This document shows, piece after piece, positions 10,412 through 64,000 of a stretch of 64,000 bases of DNA. Each line of letters opens with the position of its first letter. Position 1 is the first letter of the stretch. The translations under genes and the position numbers were made by a program. The notes beneath the pieces are model-generated. The model was not told the origin of the DNA. It searched no databases and saw nothing but the letters and a program-made list of their open reading frames with translations. The stretch is taken from assembly GCF_013426915.1 (NCBI RefSeq), contig NZ_AP023179.1, forward strand, positions 1,364,001-1,428,000, given 5' to 3'. This stretch comes from Paraburkholderia sp. PGU19 (GTDB lineage Bacteria > Pseudomonadota > Gammaproteobacteria > Burkholderiales > Burkholderiaceae).

Positions 10412-10605
10412 GGGGTTCCTCTGTGCTATTGGTGTCTGCGACGCTTTTCGGTTTGGTTTGGGTTTTTGCTGGCATCCGCGATTTGTCTTCGTGCTTCAGG
10501 CGTTGCCGGTCGGTGTTTTGGCCTTTGCGCTGGCATCCGCGATGCGTTAGCGTGCTTCAAGCGTCGCCCCTGTGCGGGGCGGCACCTACTTTTCTTTGCG
10601 GCGGC

Positions 10606-12079
10606 GTAACTATTCAGCGGTAACCAGAGGCGAAACGACGACTCCTGTAAAGGCCAGGGCGAGCGCGTCGATCAGCGAACGGCTCTGCTTGCGTAAGGTG
10701 GCAAGGTAGGAGCGGATCGTGCAGAACGCCTCCATACCCGATTCCGAGCGGAAGCACCCGGAGATCTTCTGTTTGAGTTTGGGCATGCGGATATCGCGTT
10801 CGGCCTGGTTGTTGTCGAACGGTACGCGGTGATCGGCAATGAAACGCCACACCTCATCGGCATACTTGTGAAGCCGTGTGAGCAGGTTGCAGGTAAAGCT
10901 TTGCCTGATCCTGCCGCGGCGTTCCCGGCGCCCGGACTCACGTGCCTGCTGCGGATTGAGCTTGCGTGCCTGGGCGATCAGGGCGCGGCTGCGCCGTGTG
11001 TAATAGCGTTGGCGCGCCTGACTCAGCGCGGTGTTTCCTGCAGCCTGACTGAGGTCGACCTCGCGCTTTGCCTGGCAAAGCAGGTCAATCATCTGCTGGG
11101 CCCAGCGTTGCTGCGTGGACTCCAGGACAAACACCAGTTCGCGCAGATGATGAGCATTGCACAGCGCATGCTCACACTCATAGCCGGCATACGGCCGCCA
11201 GCCGTCATGGACCGCGACTCCCGTAAAGCCGGGAAGAATGCCGAAGCTGTCCAGCGCCTCGCTGCCGCGCTTGCGGTGCGCGCCATACCAGCTCAACGCG
11301 TGCGTCGAGGCGACATGCAGCCAGCGGGACTCGCGCCCCACGCGCATGCAGCTCTCATCGAAATGCACCACGGGTTGCCCGCGTAGCGCCTGCCGGATCT
11401 GCTCAACGGCTGGCACCAGTAACTGCGCGGCCTGATCAATGCTGTGCTGGACGGTTCCCGTAACCACATGCAGACCAAACAGGTCCTTCAGCGCCTGGGC
11501 GGTGCGCGCAACCGGCAACTGCTGGTATTGCGTCAGATAGACGGCTGCGGCGCGAATCTGGGGGCCGTACTGAACCGCCTGGCTCACGCCCTTGGGAAAT
11601 GCGCCCGAGTGATGCTTGCCGCAGCGGCACTGCGCGATCTGCACGCGATGCTCGGTCACCTCAAAGCGCGTGGGTGGCAAATCGATCACCTGACGGCCTT
11701 CGGGCAACACGGCCACGCGGGCTGCTGCGATGCGTTGGCCACATGCATCGCACACCAGCGCCACCGGGTGAATCTCGATGTGATCGGGTTGCGCGACGCG
11801 TTTGAGCGTCTTGCCCTTGTGCCCCGGTTGCGCGCCAGGCCTGGCCCCGCTCGTGCCGCGCAATGACTTCGGCTTGCGCCTTGGACCATCGCTTGACGGC
11901 GGCTTGCTGGAGTTACGACTGTCCTTCTCAAGCTTTGCCTCGAGCTCGTTCAGACGCCTCACCAGATCAACGATGAGTGCGTCCTTCTGCTCCGGTGTCA
12001 GGTCCTTGAGGTCGGGCATCTTCGTCATGTCCCTCACTATGCACAGCCTGGTAGCAGTTTACAAGCGCTGAATAGTTAC
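10606..12079 (-). mobile_element. IS66-family insertion sequence with a single transposase gene
   Basis: A 1474 bp element is bounded by perfect 14 bp terminal inverted repeats (GTAACTATTCAGCG at 10606-10619 and its inverse at 12066-12079). It carries only the tnpC-type gene, with no tnpA or tnpB, as in the ISBst12-like subgroup of IS66. The TAG stop of the transposase lies inside the terminal repeat. It sits in the loop of a hairpin of the palindromic repeat. The flanking 8-mers are GCGGCGGC on the left and GCCGCCGC on the right, which are inverted and not direct copies. Confidence 0.88.
10610..12028 (-). CDS. IS66-family transposase (TnpC type)
   Basis: This is a 472-residue intact transposase. 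The N-terminus has a leucine-zipper-like region (LTPEQKDALIVDLVRRLNELEAKLE) and the SRNSSKPPSSDGP motif typical of IS66 proteins. A zinc-ribbon follows (CDACGQR, then CRCGKHH). The catalytic core is DDE-type, with Asp in VVHFDESCMRV, Asp in VAVHDGWRPY followed by CNAHHLREL, and Glu in NNQAERDIRMPKLKQKISG. The ATG at 12028 was preferred over a GTG three codons earlier. No frameshift is visible, so the element may still be active. Confidence 0.9.
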   Translation of the reverse strand: MTKMPDLKDLTPEQKDALIVDLVRRLNELEAKLEKDSRNSSKPPSSDGPRRKPKSLRGTSGARPGAQPGHKGKTLKRVAQPDHIEIHPVALVCDACGQRIAAARVAVLPEGRQVIDLPPTRFEVTEHRVQIAQCRCGKHHSGAFPKGVSQAVQYGPQIRAAAVYLTQYQQLPVARTAQALKDLFGLHVVTGTVQHSIDQAAQLLVPAVEQIRQALRGQPVVHFDESCMRVGRESRWLHVASTHALSWYGAHRKRGSEALDSFGILPGFTGVAVHDGWRPYAGYECEHALCNAHHLRELVFVLESTQQRWAQQMIDLLCQAKREVDLSQAAGNTALSQARQRYYTRRSRALIAQARKLNPQQARESGRRERRGRIRQSFTCNLLTRLHKYADEVWRFIADHRVPFDNNQAERDIRMPKLKQKISGCFRSESGMEAFCTIRSYLATLRKQSRSLIDALALAFTGVVVSPLVTAE

Positions 12080-12271
12080 GCCGCCGCAAAGAAAAGTAGG
12101 CAAAAGAAACCGGCTAACACCGCCAGTTCTTGTGTTTGCCTGAGGGCCCCCACAGGTTCCTACGCTTCACACGGCAATCACGTGACCCATGTTCGTTGCC
12201 AACGCTTTTGCGGTACGCCTCACCCGCTTCACGCACCCGCGTTGCGGCATGCCGCGCCAGATATTCCTCCG

Positions 12272-12408
12272 CCGCCCAGGTGGCAAACTGTGTGTAGGCG
12301 TTCGCACCATAAACGCATCACTTCGGACCGATAGCACACGCGTCCCACCCTGTAAGAGCGCCACGCTATACGACGCGACAACCTACACACAGTTTGCCAC
12401 CTGGGCGG
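12272..12408. repeat. 137 bp core of palindromic repeat, copy 1
   Basis: Perfect 27 bp inverted repeats (12272-12298, beginning CCGCCCAGGTGGCAAACTG, and its inverse at 12382-12408) flank an 83 bp centre. The same 137 bp unit occurs at 47307-47443 in the opposite orientation, with 8 differences in the 83 bp centre. Exact length conservation with perfect terminal repeats is what a MITE or a structured RNA element would show. Confidence 0.85.
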
Positions 12409-12712
12409 CACATACCAGTCGCAGCCGCTTGCCCGTGCAAATGCATTCGAAGCGGGTGAGGCGTTTATTCAAAGCGTTGGCAACACGCGCCAGCAGAGCC
12501 GTTGCCATGTGAAGCGTAAGACCCTTTGGGGGCCCTCAGGCACACACTAGAACTGGCGGTGTTAGCCGCTTTCTTTTGCCTACTTTTCTTTGCGGCGGCA
12601 AAGAAAAGTAGGTGCCGCCCCGCACAGGGGCGACGTGTGAAGCACGCTAACGAATCGCGGATGCCAGCAAAAACCCAAACCAAAACCAAACCAAAACCTA
12701 AAACCGAAAAAC

Positions 12713-45720: not shown

Positions 45721-47010
45721 ATGGATCTGATCGTCCGCAATGCCGTATTGCCACGCAGTGCCCCGAAACAGAATGGCCCCGTCGATATCGGCATCGAAGG
45801 CGGACGCATCGCCGCCGTCGCGCCGAACCTCGCCGCCAGCGCACGCGAAGAGATCGACGCGCAAGGCGCGCTCGTTACGCCGCCATTCATCGACGCGCAC
45901 TTCCACATGGACGCGACGCTGTCGTATGGCTTGCCGCGCGTGAACGCATCGGGCACCTTGCTCGAGGGCATCGCGCTGTGGGGCGAACTGAAGCCGCATC
46001 TGACGCAGGAAGCGCTCGTCGAGCGCGCGCTGCAGTATTGCGACTGGGCCGTCGCGCGTGGTCTGCTCGCCATCCGCACGCATGTGGATGTATGCGACGA
46101 GCGCCTGCTCGCTGTCGAAGCACTGCTCGAAGTGAAGCGCCGCGTCGCGCCTTACATGGACCTGCAACTGGTCGCGTTTCCGCAAGACGGGCTGCTGCGC
46201 AGTGCGGGTGCGTTCGACAATCTCAAGCGCGCGATTGCGATGGGTGTCGATGTGGTCGGCGGCATTCCGCATTTCGAACGGACGATGGCGGACGGCGCGG
46301 AGTCGGTGCGGCTGCTATGCGAGTTCGCTGCTGAAAAAGGCTTGCGCGTCGACATGCATTGCGACGAATCGGATGATCCGCTGTCGCGTCACATCGAAAC
46401 GCTTGCGGCGCAGACGCATCGGCTCGGGTTGCATGGCCGCGTGACAGGCTCGCATCTGACGTCGATGCATTCGATGGACAACTACTACGTCAGCAAGCTG
46501 CTGCCGCTGATGCGCGAATCGGGCGTGGCGGCCATCGCGAATCCGCTGATCAACATCACGTTGCAAGGGCGCTCGGACACCTACCCGAAACGGCGCGGCA
46601 TGACACGCGTGCCGGAGATGCTGGCGGCGGGGATCAACGTCGCGTTTGGCCACGACTGCGTGATGGACCCTTGGTACAGCCTCGGTTCCGGCGACATGCT
46701 CGAAGTCGCGCACATGGGCTTGCACGTCGCGCAGATGACGGGTATCGACGCGATGCATGCGTGTTTTGACGCCGTCACGGTGAATGCGGCGCGTATTCTT
46801 GGGCTGGAGCGTTATGGAGTTGAGCCGGGATGCGATGCGAATCTCGTCGTGCTTGACGCGCGCGATGCTGTCGAGGCGATACGTTTGCGCGCGGCGCGGC
46901 TGGCAGTCGTGAGCCGGGGGAAAGTGGTGAGCCGCGCTCCGGCGGCACGCGCGATGTTGTCGCTGGAAGGGCGGCCTATGGAAGTGGACTTCAAACTGCA
47001 TCGCGGGTGA
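45721..47010 (+). CDS. codA: Cytosine deaminase-type amidohydrolase
   Basis: This is a 429-residue metal-dependent amidohydrolase that closely resembles E. coli CodA (427 residues). Shared blocks are PPFIDAHFHMDATLSYG (metal ligands His-X-His), RTHVDVCD, PHFERT, HCDESDDPLSRH, ANPLINITLQGRSDTYPKRRGMTRV and FGHDCVMDPWY. CodA converts cytosine to uracil and ammonia. A GGAG site lies upstream of the ATG. No CodB-like permease is next to it, so transport must occur elsewhere, or the substrate may be a related pyrimidine. It is followed by the palindromic repeat. Confidence 0.88.
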   Translation: MDLIVRNAVLPRSAPKQNGPVDIGIEGGRIAAVAPNLAASAREEIDAQGALVTPPFIDAHFHMDATLSYGLPRVNASGTLLEGIALWGELKPHLTQEALVERALQYCDWAVARGLLAIRTHVDVCDERLLAVEALLEVKRRVAPYMDLQLVAFPQDGLLRSAGAFDNLKRAIAMGVDVVGGIPHFERTMADGAESVRLLCEFAAEKGLRVDMHCDESDDPLSRHIETLAAQTHRLGLHGRVTGSHLTSMHSMDNYYVSKLLPLMRESGVAAIANPLINITLQGRSDTYPKRRGMTRVPEMLAAGINVAFGHDCVMDPWYSLGSGDMLEVAHMGLHVAQMTGIDAMHACFDAVTVNAARILGLERYGVEPGCDANLVVLDARDAVEAIRLRAARLAVVSRGKVVSRAPAARAMLSLEGRPMEVDFKLHRG

Positions 47011-47045
47011 ATAGGGTTCGTGACGGATTTGGTTTGCTTGCCTTT

Positions 47046-47705
47046 GCGCTGGCATCCGCGATTCGTTATCTAGCTTCAAGCGTTGCCCCTGTGCGGGGCG
47101 GCACCTACTTTTCTTTGCCGCCGCAAAGAAAAGTAGGCAAAAGAAAGCGGCTAACACCGCCAGCCCGTGCTCTTATCCACGGGCCCTCAAGGTCCCCATG
47201 CTTCATACGGCTGTGCCCCGGTTGGCGCGCGTTGCCAACGCTTCGAATGAACGCCTCACCCGCTTCAAATACCCATACTTAGGCCGGCGGCAGCGAATGG
47301 TTTGTGCCGCCCAGGTGACAAACTGTGTGTAGGTTGTCGCGTCGTATAGGTTGGCGCTCTTACAGCGTGGAACGCGTGCGCTATCGGTCCGGAGTGGTGC
47401 ATTTATGGTGCGAACGCCTACACACAGTTTGCCACCTGGGCGGCGGTGGAAGATCTGGCACGGCAGGCTGCAACGCGGGTGGGTGAAGTGGGTGAGGCGT
47501 ATAGAGAGAGCGTTGGCAACGAGCGCGGACTGGCGCGTTGCCGTGTGAAGCGTAAGAACCTTTGGGGGCCCTCAGGCAGGAAGAAATGTTGGCGGTGTGA
47601 GCCGCTTTCTTTTGCCTACTTTTCTTTGCGGCGGCAAAGAAAAGTAGGTGCCGCCCCGCACAGGGGCGACGCATGAAGCACGGTAACGCATCGCGGATGC
47701 CAGCG
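47046..47705. repeat. Large nested palindromic repeat, copy 2
   Basis: This is a 660 bp intact copy in the opposite orientation to copy 1. Outer arms GCGCTGGCATCCGCGAT...ATCGCGGATGCCAGCG bound it. Inside are CCCCTGTGCGGGGCGGCACC and its inverse, the CCTACTTTTCTTTG hairpins on both sides, AGCGGCTAACACCGCC-type arms, GTTGCCAACGCTTCGAATG arms (47231-47266 with 47485-47520) and the 137 bp core. A further partial outer arm lies at about 47723-47770. It separates the convergent codA and prlC genes. Confidence 0.85.
47307..47443. repeat. 137 bp core of palindromic repeat, copy 2
   Basis: 27 bp inverted repeats (47307-47333 and 47417-47443, one mismatch) flank an 83 bp centre that matches the reverse complement of the copy 1 centre at 75 of 83 positions. 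The total length is exactly 137 bp in both copies. Confidence 0.85.
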
Positions 47706-47776
47706 TAAATGCCAGAACACCACACGGCGACGCGTGAAGCACGCTAACGAAACGCGGATGCCAGCGAAAGAGCCAC

Positions 47777-61989: not shown

Positions 61990-62073
61990 GGCATCGACCC
62001 GCGAGCCCCAATGCGCAACCTCGCCGCCCGAAGCGGGCGGTCGAGGCGCGCGCGGCCCTGGAGACAGAAAACA

Positions 62074-63735
62074 ATGAGCCAAGCGATCGAAGTCAAGGTG
62101 CCGGACATCGGCGATTACAAGGACATCCCTGTAATCGAGGTGCTGGTGAAGGCGGGTGATACCGTCGATAAAGAGCAGTCCCTCGTCACGCTGGAATCCG
62201 ACAAGGCGACGATGGATGTGCCGAGCCCCGCGTCGGGCACGGTCAAGGAAGTGAAGGTCAAGCTTGGCGACACGGTGTCGGAAGGCACGTTGATCGTGCT
62301 GCTCGACGGTGAAGGCGGCGCGGCTGCCGCGAAGCCGGCTCAAGGCAACGGCGCGGCTGCGCCGGCTGCTGCCCCGGCTGCGGCGCCTGCTCCCGCTCCC
62401 GCACCTGCTGCCAAGGGTGGCGGCGTGCAGGAAGTGAAGGTGCCGGATATCGGCGACTACAAAGATGTGCCCGTGATCGAAGTCGGCGTCAAGGTTGGCG
62501 ACCGCGTCGAGAAGGAGCAGTCGCTCGTCACGCTCGAATCGGACAAGGCGACGATGGACGTGCCGAGCCCGGCGGCTGGCATCGTCAAGGAAATCAAGGT
62601 CAAGGTCGGCGATAGCGTGTCCGAAGGTACGCTGATCGTGCTGCTCGAAGGCGACAGCGGCGGCGCCGCTGCGCCCGCGCCGGCACCCGCTGCCGCGAAG
62701 CACGAAGAAAAGCCGTCGGACGCGCCCGCTGCGCCGTCGCCGGCTCCCGCGCAGCCGTCCGCGCTCGCGCAGGCGCCTGTCATTCCCGCAGGCGAAGGCG
62801 GCGCGTATCGCGTGAGCCATGCGTCGCCGTCGGTGCGCAAGTTCGCGCGTGAACTGGGCGTCGACGTGTCGCGCGTGGCAGGCACGGGTCCGAAGGGCCG
62901 CATTACGCAGGATGACGTCACCGCGTTCGTCAAGGGCGTGATGACGGGCCAGCGCGCTGCGCCCGCTGCGGCGGCAGCACCCGCTGGTGCAGGTGGCGGC
63001 GAACTCGGTCTGCTGCCGTGGCCGAAGATCGACTTCACGAAGTTCGGCCCGATCGATCCGAAGCCGCTGTCGCGCATCAAGAAGATCTCCGGCGCGAACC
63101 TGCATCGCAACTGGGTCATGATCCCGCACGTCACGAACAACGACGAAGCGGATATCACCGAGCTCGAAGAGTTGCGCGTGAAGCTGAACAAGGAGAACGA
63201 GAAGTCGGGCGTCAAGTTCACGATGCTCGCGTTCGTCATCAAGGCTGTCGTCGCGGCGCTGAAGAAATTCCCGACGTTCAATACCAGCCTCGATGGCGAC
63301 AACCTCGTGTACAAGCAGTACTACAACGTGGGTTTCGCTGCCGATACGCCGAACGGTCTCGTCGTGCCCGTGATCCGCGATGCGGACAAGAAGGGTCTCG
63401 TCGATATCGCGAAGGAAATGGCCGACCTGTCGAAGCTCGCGCGCGAAGGCAAGCTCAAGCCCGACCAGATGCAAGGCGGCTGCTTCTCGATCTCGTCGCT
63501 GGGCGGGATTGGCGGGACGAACTTCACGCCGATCATCAATGCGCCTGAAGTCGCGATTCTCGGGCTGTCGCGCGGTGCGATGAAGCCGGTGTGGGACGGC
63601 AAGCAGTTCGTGCCGCGTCTCATGCTGCCGATGTCGCTGTCGTATGACCATCGTGTGATCGACGGGGCTGAAGCGGCGCGCTTCAATGCGTATCTTGGGT
63701 CGATTCTTGCCGATTTCCGGCGTGTGATTCTTTGA
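62074..63735 (+). CDS. aceF: Dihydrolipoamide acetyltransferase (PDH E2)
   Basis: This is a 553-residue core subunit of the pyruvate dehydrogenase complex. Two lipoyl domains (each with the lipoyl-lysine motif ESDKATMDVPSP) are followed by Ala/Pro-rich linkers, a peripheral-subunit-binding domain (YRVSHASPSVRKFARELGV, GPKGRITQDDV) and the catalytic acetyltransferase domain with SYDHRVIDGAEAARF at the end. The number of lipoyl domains is two, against three in E. coli. A GGAG site precedes the ATG. It belongs to the aceE operon; E3 (lpdA) should lie beyond the window edge. Confidence 0.96.
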   Translation: MSQAIEVKVPDIGDYKDIPVIEVLVKAGDTVDKEQSLVTLESDKATMDVPSPASGTVKEVKVKLGDTVSEGTLIVLLDGEGGAAAAKPAQGNGAAAPAAAPAAAPAPAPAPAAKGGGVQEVKVPDIGDYKDVPVIEVGVKVGDRVEKEQSLVTLESDKATMDVPSPAAGIVKEIKVKVGDSVSEGTLIVLLEGDSGGAAAPAPAPAAAKHEEKPSDAPAAPSPAPAQPSALAQAPVIPAGEGGAYRVSHASPSVRKFARELGVDVSRVAGTGPKGRITQDDVTAFVKGVMTGQRAAPAAAAAPAGAGGGELGLLPWPKIDFTKFGPIDPKPLSRIKKISGANLHRNWVMIPHVTNNDEADITELEELRVKLNKENEKSGVKFTMLAFVIKAVVAALKKFPTFNTSLDGDNLVYKQYYNVGFAADTPNGLVVPVIRDADKKGLVDIAKEMADLSKLAREGKLKPDQMQGGCFSISSLGGIGGTNFTPIINAPEVAILGLSRGAMKPVWDGKQFVPRLMLPMSLSYDHRVIDGAEAARFNAYLGSILADFRRVIL

Positions 63736-64000
63736 TTGTTGGGCGTTTGTCGCGCGGCGAGGTGTGAGCGTTTTGTGGGTGCTCATGCCTTGTCGTTGAA
63801 CCTGCTTTGTCGTCTCGCTTCATGCGTTGCCCCTGTGCGGGGCGGCACCTACTTTTCTTTGTCTTGCAAAGAAAAGTAGGCAAAAGAAAGCCGCGTCCTT
63901 GGCGGACGGCATTAAGTCTGCGTTTGGCGTTGCGGGTTTTTCGAGGCGAAGGTTCTTCGCGGCTCATCGTTCAACACGGTCAATAAGAGAAGGGGACACT
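63736..64000. repeat. Partial palindromic repeat of the same family at the window end
   Basis: After the aceF stop come TGCGTTGCCCCTGTGCGGGGCGGCACC and the hairpin CCTACTTTTCTTTG-TCTTG-CAAAGAAAAGTAGG (63848-63880), followed by CAAAAGAAAG. These match the outer part of the two large repeats. The sequence then departs from the family (CCGCGTCCTTGGCGGACGG) and no gene is seen to the edge. The copy may continue outside the window. Confidence 0.75.

Follow-up and report, generated by a model that had tools for sequence, protein, structure and literature searches.

Two copies of a palindromic repeat in the window

The window, i.e. the whole stretch of 64,000 nucleotides that was analyzed, carries two copies of a palindromic repeat and a solo copy of its outer module (Table 1). 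Copy 1 lies between codirectional genes for an ABC-transporter ATPase and a metallophosphoesterase, and copy 2 between convergent cytosine-deaminase-like and oligopeptidase-A-like genes. The preliminary description of this DNA reported two copies with a common order of modules, in opposite orientation, one of them interrupted by an insertion sequence (IS), and all of this was found as first described. Its observation that the left arm of copy 1 matches the right arm of copy 2 is also real, but it merely reflects the opposite orientation of the copies, the cores of which lie on the minus and plus strands, respectively. The unit is larger than the extents given there: copy 1 reaches outward into T/G-rich skirts, with a GTCTGCGACGC motif at 10434.

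Table 1. Coordinates of the repeat copies, their parts, and the neighboring features in the window
Feature	Position	Strand	Details
Copy 1 with T/G-rich skirts, IS66-family-interrupted	10432..12712	- (core strand)	outer ends approximate
Copy 1, arms	10524-10605/12592-12673		82 nt, 91% complementary
Copy 1, left hairpin, split	10585-10605 + 12080-12100	.	hairpin search
IS66-family IS in the loop of the copy 1 left hairpin	10606..12079	-	transposase ORF 10610-12037 (-)
8-nt flanks of the IS66-family IS	10598-10605; 12080-12087		GCGGCGGC; GCCGCCGC
Copy 1, arms	12080-12177/12502-12599		98 nt, 93% complementary
Copy 1, inner inverted repeat around core, left	12271..12305	.	partner 12375-12409; 35 nt, 91% complementary
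Copy 1, oriented core motif, GGCGCTCTTACAGGGTGG type	12345..12362	-	motif scan
Copy 1, right 34-nt hairpin	12579..12612	.	hairpin search
Copy 2	47030..47766	+ (core strand)	one additional outer GCGGATGCCAGC unit at right
Copy 2, arms	47030-47190/47562-47722		161 nt, 84% complementary
Copy 2, left 34-nt hairpin	47104..47137	.	hairpin search
Copy 2, inner inverted repeat, left	47306..47340	.	partner 47410-47444; 35 nt, 89% complementary, 69 nt between
Copy 2, oriented core motif	47353..47370	+	motif scan
Copy 2, right 34-nt hairpin	47615..47648	.	hairpin search
aceF	62011-63735		lpdA begins outside the window
Solo outer module in the aceF-lpdA spacer	63745..63890	-	RF02421 match 63745-63858 (-), hairpin 63848-63880, A-rich tail

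A large repeat family with conserved modules

Both window copies are members of a palindromic repeat family of the 11.2-Mb Paraburkholderia-type genome. The 34-nt hairpin CCTACTTTTCTTTGC-NGCN-GCAAAGAAAAGTAGG was found 249 times with at most two mismatches (reversed-pattern control, 0), and the core motif 100 times (control, 0), with 60 of these matches on one of the strands and 40 on the opposite one. The proposal of a distinct interspersed family with numerous copies was thus borne out. A second search added four further core-bearing copies, giving at least 104 in the genome.

For the analysis, we took 100 loci with 101 copies, including one of the four additional core matches. The alignment set consisted of the 78 intact copies, i.e. 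those with both hairpins at normal distance. The other 23 were classed by flanks, position, and six transposase frames, only some of the transposases being profile-checked, as interrupted by IS66 (7), IS30 (6), IS5 (2), or IS630 (2) elements, as a tandem pair (2), or as truncated/degenerate (4). The 78 aligned copies are ~690 bp long, with near-constant hairpin-to-hairpin spacing and a median pairwise identity of 85% (99th percentile 90%, maximum 98%). Each copy is a palindrome of ~690 bp surrounding an oriented core of ~83 nt, and the consensus folds as a single hairpin at −562 kcal/mol.

From the outside to the inside, and mirrored on the other side, each copy consists of a T/G-rich skirt, outer GCTGGCATCCGCG units (1–3 on each side, with few exceptions), GCCCCTGTGCGGGGC, the 34-nt hairpin and its CAAAAGAAAG tail, CGGCTNACACCGCC, the variable arms, a 22-nt inner block GGTGGCAAACTGTGTGTAGG, and the asymmetric core of ~83 nt. 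The outward strand of the skirts is A- and C-rich and G-poor, and inward-reading T5 runs were present in 121 of 156 flanks, against 3 of 156 for AAAAA. Among the 78 copies, mean heterozygosity was 0.014 for each of the two 71-nt hairpin blocks, 0.016 and 0.030 for the inner 22-nt blocks, and 0.023 (left) and 0.082 (right) for the outer 13-nt motif, versus 0.16–0.23 in the stretches between the conserved modules. For a hairpin to stay conserved amid copies that vary so much, selection must act at numerous sites, or else the donation of sequence must be biased so that it comes only from copies whose modules are intact. A coding gene was considered and rejected, as the longest frames are not longer than shuffled ones (median 110.5 versus 118 aa); two frames inside the repeats had no match in Pfam, and no reading frame is conserved among the copies.

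The copies are unevenly spread, since two 50-kb stretches of one P. caribensis record contain none, and the number of hairpins across the genus is very uneven as well, ranging from 0 to 365 per genome. An exact scan of genome contigs with the core strings gave no match, a result that does not imply absence because close records may be missing from the contigs scanned, and a phage search gave no match to the repeat. Tandem forms with two cores between the outer hairpins were seen at two loci (L094, and L156 at 46867-47775). In Caballeronia sp. NK8 (L144, 3001-3573), a palindrome of similar plan (RF02421-like arms, hairpin, long arms) has a different arm sequence.

According to a home-made gene caller, the neighboring genes are convergent for 29 of the 78 copies, codirectional for 44, and divergent for five. 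The background of all 39 gaps in the window was 9, 23, and 7, respectively, so the contrast is modest.

Orthologous copies are inverted in place

Seven sites were compared among P. caribensis (MWAP64, 852011, MBA4), P. largidicola (PGU16, F2), and P. phymatum. At three of the seven, the orientation of the repeat with respect to its flanks is reversed: site 2 between P. caribensis and P. largidicola, site B2 in 852011 versus both other P. caribensis strains, and site C in MBA4 versus the other two. At site B2, the flanks of 852011 are 99.5 and 99.2% identical to those of MWAP64, while the interior is 91.5% identical when flipped and 73.1% when left unflipped. As orthologous copies with 99% identical flanks are mutually inverted, the copies flip in place, and the earlier explanation of both orientations solely by movement of the unit as a whole is not supported.

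The interiors of near-identical pairs were 88.0, 91.8, 91.5, 95.1, 96.2, and 90.4% identical, with flanks at 98–100%. Between species, at sites with a shared core, the corresponding values were 80–84% and 88–96%. Sites 1, 2, 3, and C carry the repeat in both P. caribensis and P. largidicola. At sites B2 and B3, P. largidicola has 4.5–5 kb of other DNA and no hairpin; therefore, gains or losses of copies also happen. Empty sites, raised earlier as a mark of a mobile or structured element, were seen as short, empty-looking gaps at three P. phymatum sites (2, B1, and B2), measuring 170–211 bp where the relatives have 700–900 bp; at sites 3 and B3 this species has other DNA without the hairpin. 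The P. largidicola copies at two sites (L146 and L150 at site 1, and L161) have no recognizable core motif, and at site 1 a different core sequence stands in its place.

Variants are shuffled among copies and between arms

We computed linkage disequilibrium at 188 informative sites among the 78 copies. The r2 value was 0.17 at ≤3 bp, 0.036 at 20–40 bp, 0.016 at 80–160 bp, and, at distances above 320 bp, 0.013, which equals 1/n; variant linkage falls to chance level within ~160 bp. Given this decay to 1/n, the paralogues of one genome look like a recombining population. Furthermore, the second allele was complementary between the arms at 52 of the 65 paired sites where both columns vary, versus a mean of 44% (sd 5%, maximum 60% in 300 draws) in a control with mismatched columns; thus, the same variants circulate in both arms.

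Within-copy matching of the arms, as the envisaged compensatory changes would give, was seen in part of their length. In columns 120–280, within-copy arm pairing (0.831) did not differ from that of shuffled copies (0.832, z −0.4), whereas it exceeded the shuffles in the outer 50 columns (0.836 versus 0.807, z 6.1) and in columns 50–120 (z 3.6). Some within-copy arm matching therefore exists, as expected from arm-to-arm conversion or from structural selection. Among the departures from pairing in the long arms, G-U (745) did not significantly exceed A-C (654), the bootstrap interval of the difference including 0, so nothing here indicates that one strand is selected as RNA. We read the shuffling and the flips as probable ectopic gene conversion plus inversion. 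Misassembly of repeats could mimic both; the five contigs for 11.2 Mb point to long reads and argue against it.

The hairpin module and its relation to RF02421

The inner hairpin stem with a short loop was found, as an exact match, in 20 of 369 genomes of the class, belonging to 18 genera (control, 0). In the cross-genome stem comparison, 23 of 25 hairpins from these and nearer genomes were parsed and two were not. The tail of the parsed hairpins ends in ...CAAAAGAAA or a close form, and their third foot pair is C-G, T-A, A-T, or G-C depending on the genome; some feet carry a mismatch. Among the copies listed for two genomes (G005 and G008), there is a double compensating stem change, CTTCTC/GAGAAG. 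The hairpin module is old and shows compensatory stem changes across genomes. In several genera (L163, L166, L178, L179, L181, L182, and others), the hairpin is followed by a further common block of GGTTCCCTGCGCTACTCG type, perhaps part of a wider unnamed family.

The outer module resembles the Rfam family RF02421 (Bp1_684, the Burkholderia sRNA Bp1_Cand684_SIPHT): the GCCCC-loop-GGGGC hairpin and the flanking AGAAAAGU strand of the model align on both arms of copy L002. RF02421 is, however, a single unit of 113 nt, without the TTTTCTTTG half of the hairpin that is present in the repeat here, while the palindrome combines a pair of such units, inverted to each other, with long arms and a core. 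The model scored 118.8 bits in B. cepacia and 53.9 on the solo copy of the window. On the palindrome arms, it reached 41.0 and 35.1 bits (L002) and 39.5 and 36.5 bits (Caballeronia), and window copies 1 and 2 are not listed at the gathering cut-off of 44 bits. The composite palindrome is not filed as an RF02421 member, because the tested arms score below this cut-off. The earlier statement that no named element has this structure thus stands for the composite palindrome, which is undescribed in the literature searched, but not for its outer module. That search covered open-licence full text, a scope that does not extend to sequence strings printed in figures, to supplements, or to most of the subscription literature. 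With at most ~23 candidates scored per genome, RF02421 was found in 124 of the 144 genus genomes, in 88 of them above the cut-off. A weak mir-784 match to the inner repeat, 37 bits against a cut-off of 94, was taken as a chance stem match.

The solo copies of the window and of a B. cepacia plasmid occupy the same spot, between aceF and lpdA, and each bears the foot sequence of its own genome. The loop of the window's solo module differs from that of the dispersed palindromes of this genome, with which it shares the stem foot. According to Khoo et al. (PMC3521395), the candidate Bp1_Cand684 gives an RT-PCR product in B. pseudomallei, has unrelated neighbors, and may act in trans. Operon mRNA could also yield such a product when the target lies in the spacer of an operon.

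Insertion sequences target the hairpin

The small hairpin is a landing site for two IS types, of the IS66 and IS30 families. In all 11 copies found in the genome, the IS66-family element lies in the hairpin loop, flanked by a direct 8-bp duplication in nine cases and by inverted flanks in two. The window copy belongs to the latter, its two 8-nt flanks being mutually inverted rather than directly duplicated, as expected after arm exchange. Eight of the 10 full-length IS30-family copies (one 452-nt fragment was left out of this count) occupy the hairpin foot, where a 3-bp duplication flanks them; one lies elsewhere in the repeat, and one outside it. IS5- and IS630-family elements also occur inside the palindrome (L183–L192, L114, and L046 are examples of loci with IS30-, IS5-, or IS630-family insertions). 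IS1397-type elements insert into the palindromic units of BIMEs. The IS66-family element resembles them in entering only the loop of one repeated hairpin, but belongs to another family and mostly makes an 8-bp duplication, while the IS30-family element uses the foot and 3 bp.

Candidate enzymes

A true SbcD was found above the cut-off in only 15 of the 144 genus genomes, namely in three of the 12 with at least 95 hairpins and in 12 of the 132 others; the profile search returned none above it in the window genome. We considered whether the absence of SbcCD explains the hairpin-rich genomes, or whether SbcCD breaks drive conversion, and found no explanatory link. As this genome has no true SbcD, SbcCD cleavage is unlikely as a trigger here. 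A Y1_Tnp match was present in 143 of the 144 genus genomes, regardless of hairpin number. In most of them it is a single weak match (~28 bits) in a frame of ~240–360 aa, possibly a RAYT-like gene.

Nature of the repeat

REP/BIME sequences are intergenic and palindromic, are present in many copies, lie in few divergent contexts and within operons, attract hairpin-targeting ISs, and measure tens of bp. The repeat described here shares the intergenic position, the palindromic structure, the copy number, the scarcity of divergent contexts (5/78), the occurrence within an operon, and the role as an IS target. It differs in its length of ~690 bp, its single oriented core, and its in-place inversion, and no link to a RAYT (REP-associated tyrosine transposase) was found, Y1_Tnp being unrelated to hairpin number. 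It is a composite REP/BIME-like repeat with an outer module known to Rfam; the literature searched gave no description of the palindrome as a whole, of its inversion, or of the exchange among its copies. We assign a probability of about 0.6 to its being a non-coding interspersed repeat of this kind, formed by two inverted old hairpin modules and long arms around the core of ~83 nt.

Among the alternatives, a transcribed repeat acting as a small RNA, or as a structure at mRNA 3' ends or between cistrons, deserves the most attention, even though we hold it to be less probable than not. RF02421 is a small RNA in Rfam, Bp1_Cand684 gave an RT-PCR product in B. pseudomallei according to Khoo et al. 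(PMC3521395), the stem changes across genomes are compensatory, a solo copy sits inside the pdh operon in two genera, and the consensus folds very stably (−562 kcal/mol). Against this, the RT-PCR product could derive from operon mRNA, the palindrome occurs in both orientations relative to genes, the middle arms show no covariation, and the G-U excess in the long arms has a bootstrap interval that includes 0. One long functional RNA hairpin, as suggested at first, is not supported, since the middle arms are unmatched within copies (z −0.4) and the excess of G-U over A-C is not significant. It is unlikely that the repeat is a two-way transcription boundary or terminator: the few divergent gene pairs (5/78), the inward T5 runs (121/156 versus 3/156 for AAAAA), and the A/C-rich, G-poor outward strand would suit such a role, but no stable hairpin precedes the T runs (mean −7.9 versus −7.3 kcal/mol when shuffled), and these are equally common by gene starts (43/50) and gene ends (79/106). 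Intrinsic terminators as insertion sites, hinted at by one P. phymatum locus, fail as a general rule in the same T-run tests.

We regard a MITE, i.e. a non-autonomous transposon that a cellular transposase mobilizes in trans, the shuffling being a side effect, as equally improbable. The copies are dispersed, their number varies from 0 to 365 hairpins across the genus, and three P. phymatum sites have gaps of 170–211 bp instead of 700–900 bp. However, inspection of 26 flank pairs by eye showed neither a target-site duplication nor a sharp terminus, the ends fade into T/G-rich skirts with a variable number of outer units, pairwise identity reaches only 90% at its 99th percentile, which speaks against a recent burst, four sites are common to two species, and a non-systematic look encountered no transposase with matching ends. 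The MITE-like element first suggested is not supported in its simple form. Least probable by far is mobilization of the hairpins by a RAYT. The GTAG at the hairpin foot in this genome and the mostly single, weak Y1_Tnp matches in 143/144 genus genomes would fit it, but the protein is equally common in genomes without the hairpin, and in relatives the GTAG foot is replaced by GTAA, GTAC, GTAT, or GTCA.

For the REP/BIME-like repeat that we prefer, mixing and flipping would result from homologous recombination, in the form of short-tract gene conversion between copies and between the arms of one copy. Long palindromes are recombinogenic, which would favor it, and exchange and flipping are both outcomes to be expected of homologous recombination between inverted and dispersed repeats. 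The invariance of the hairpin may be due to a host factor or nuclease that recognizes it as a structured nucleic acid; as with REPs, the most plausible places for this are the 3' ends of genes and the interior of operons such as aceF-lpdA. By this analogy, our best guess for the role is that of a spacer with secondary structure, located where genes end and within operons. A bolder version, which we advance tentatively and consider rather doubtful as a whole, is that the at least 100 palindromes form one exchanging pool, kept homogeneous, two-armed, and invertible by conversion, with the class-wide hairpin read as structured DNA by a host factor and by hairpin-specific transposases. If true, the repeat would be a selfish or domesticated element that spreads mainly through conversion and flipping, not through transposition.

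The repeat offers a clear natural example of intergenic palindromic paralogues that, within one bacterial genome, resemble a population undergoing recombination and that flip among strains which are nearly identical. It becomes directly testable whether gene conversion shapes the evolution of REP-like repeats, a long-standing question that the title of Higgins 1988, cited in PMC2267715, reportedly raises ("evolution by gene conversion?"). The repeat also shows how long palindromes persist in a genome without a true SbcD, provides two transposases with a strict hairpin target, and ties an unexplained "sRNA" of Rfam to a hairpin repeat whose range spans 18 genera of the class.
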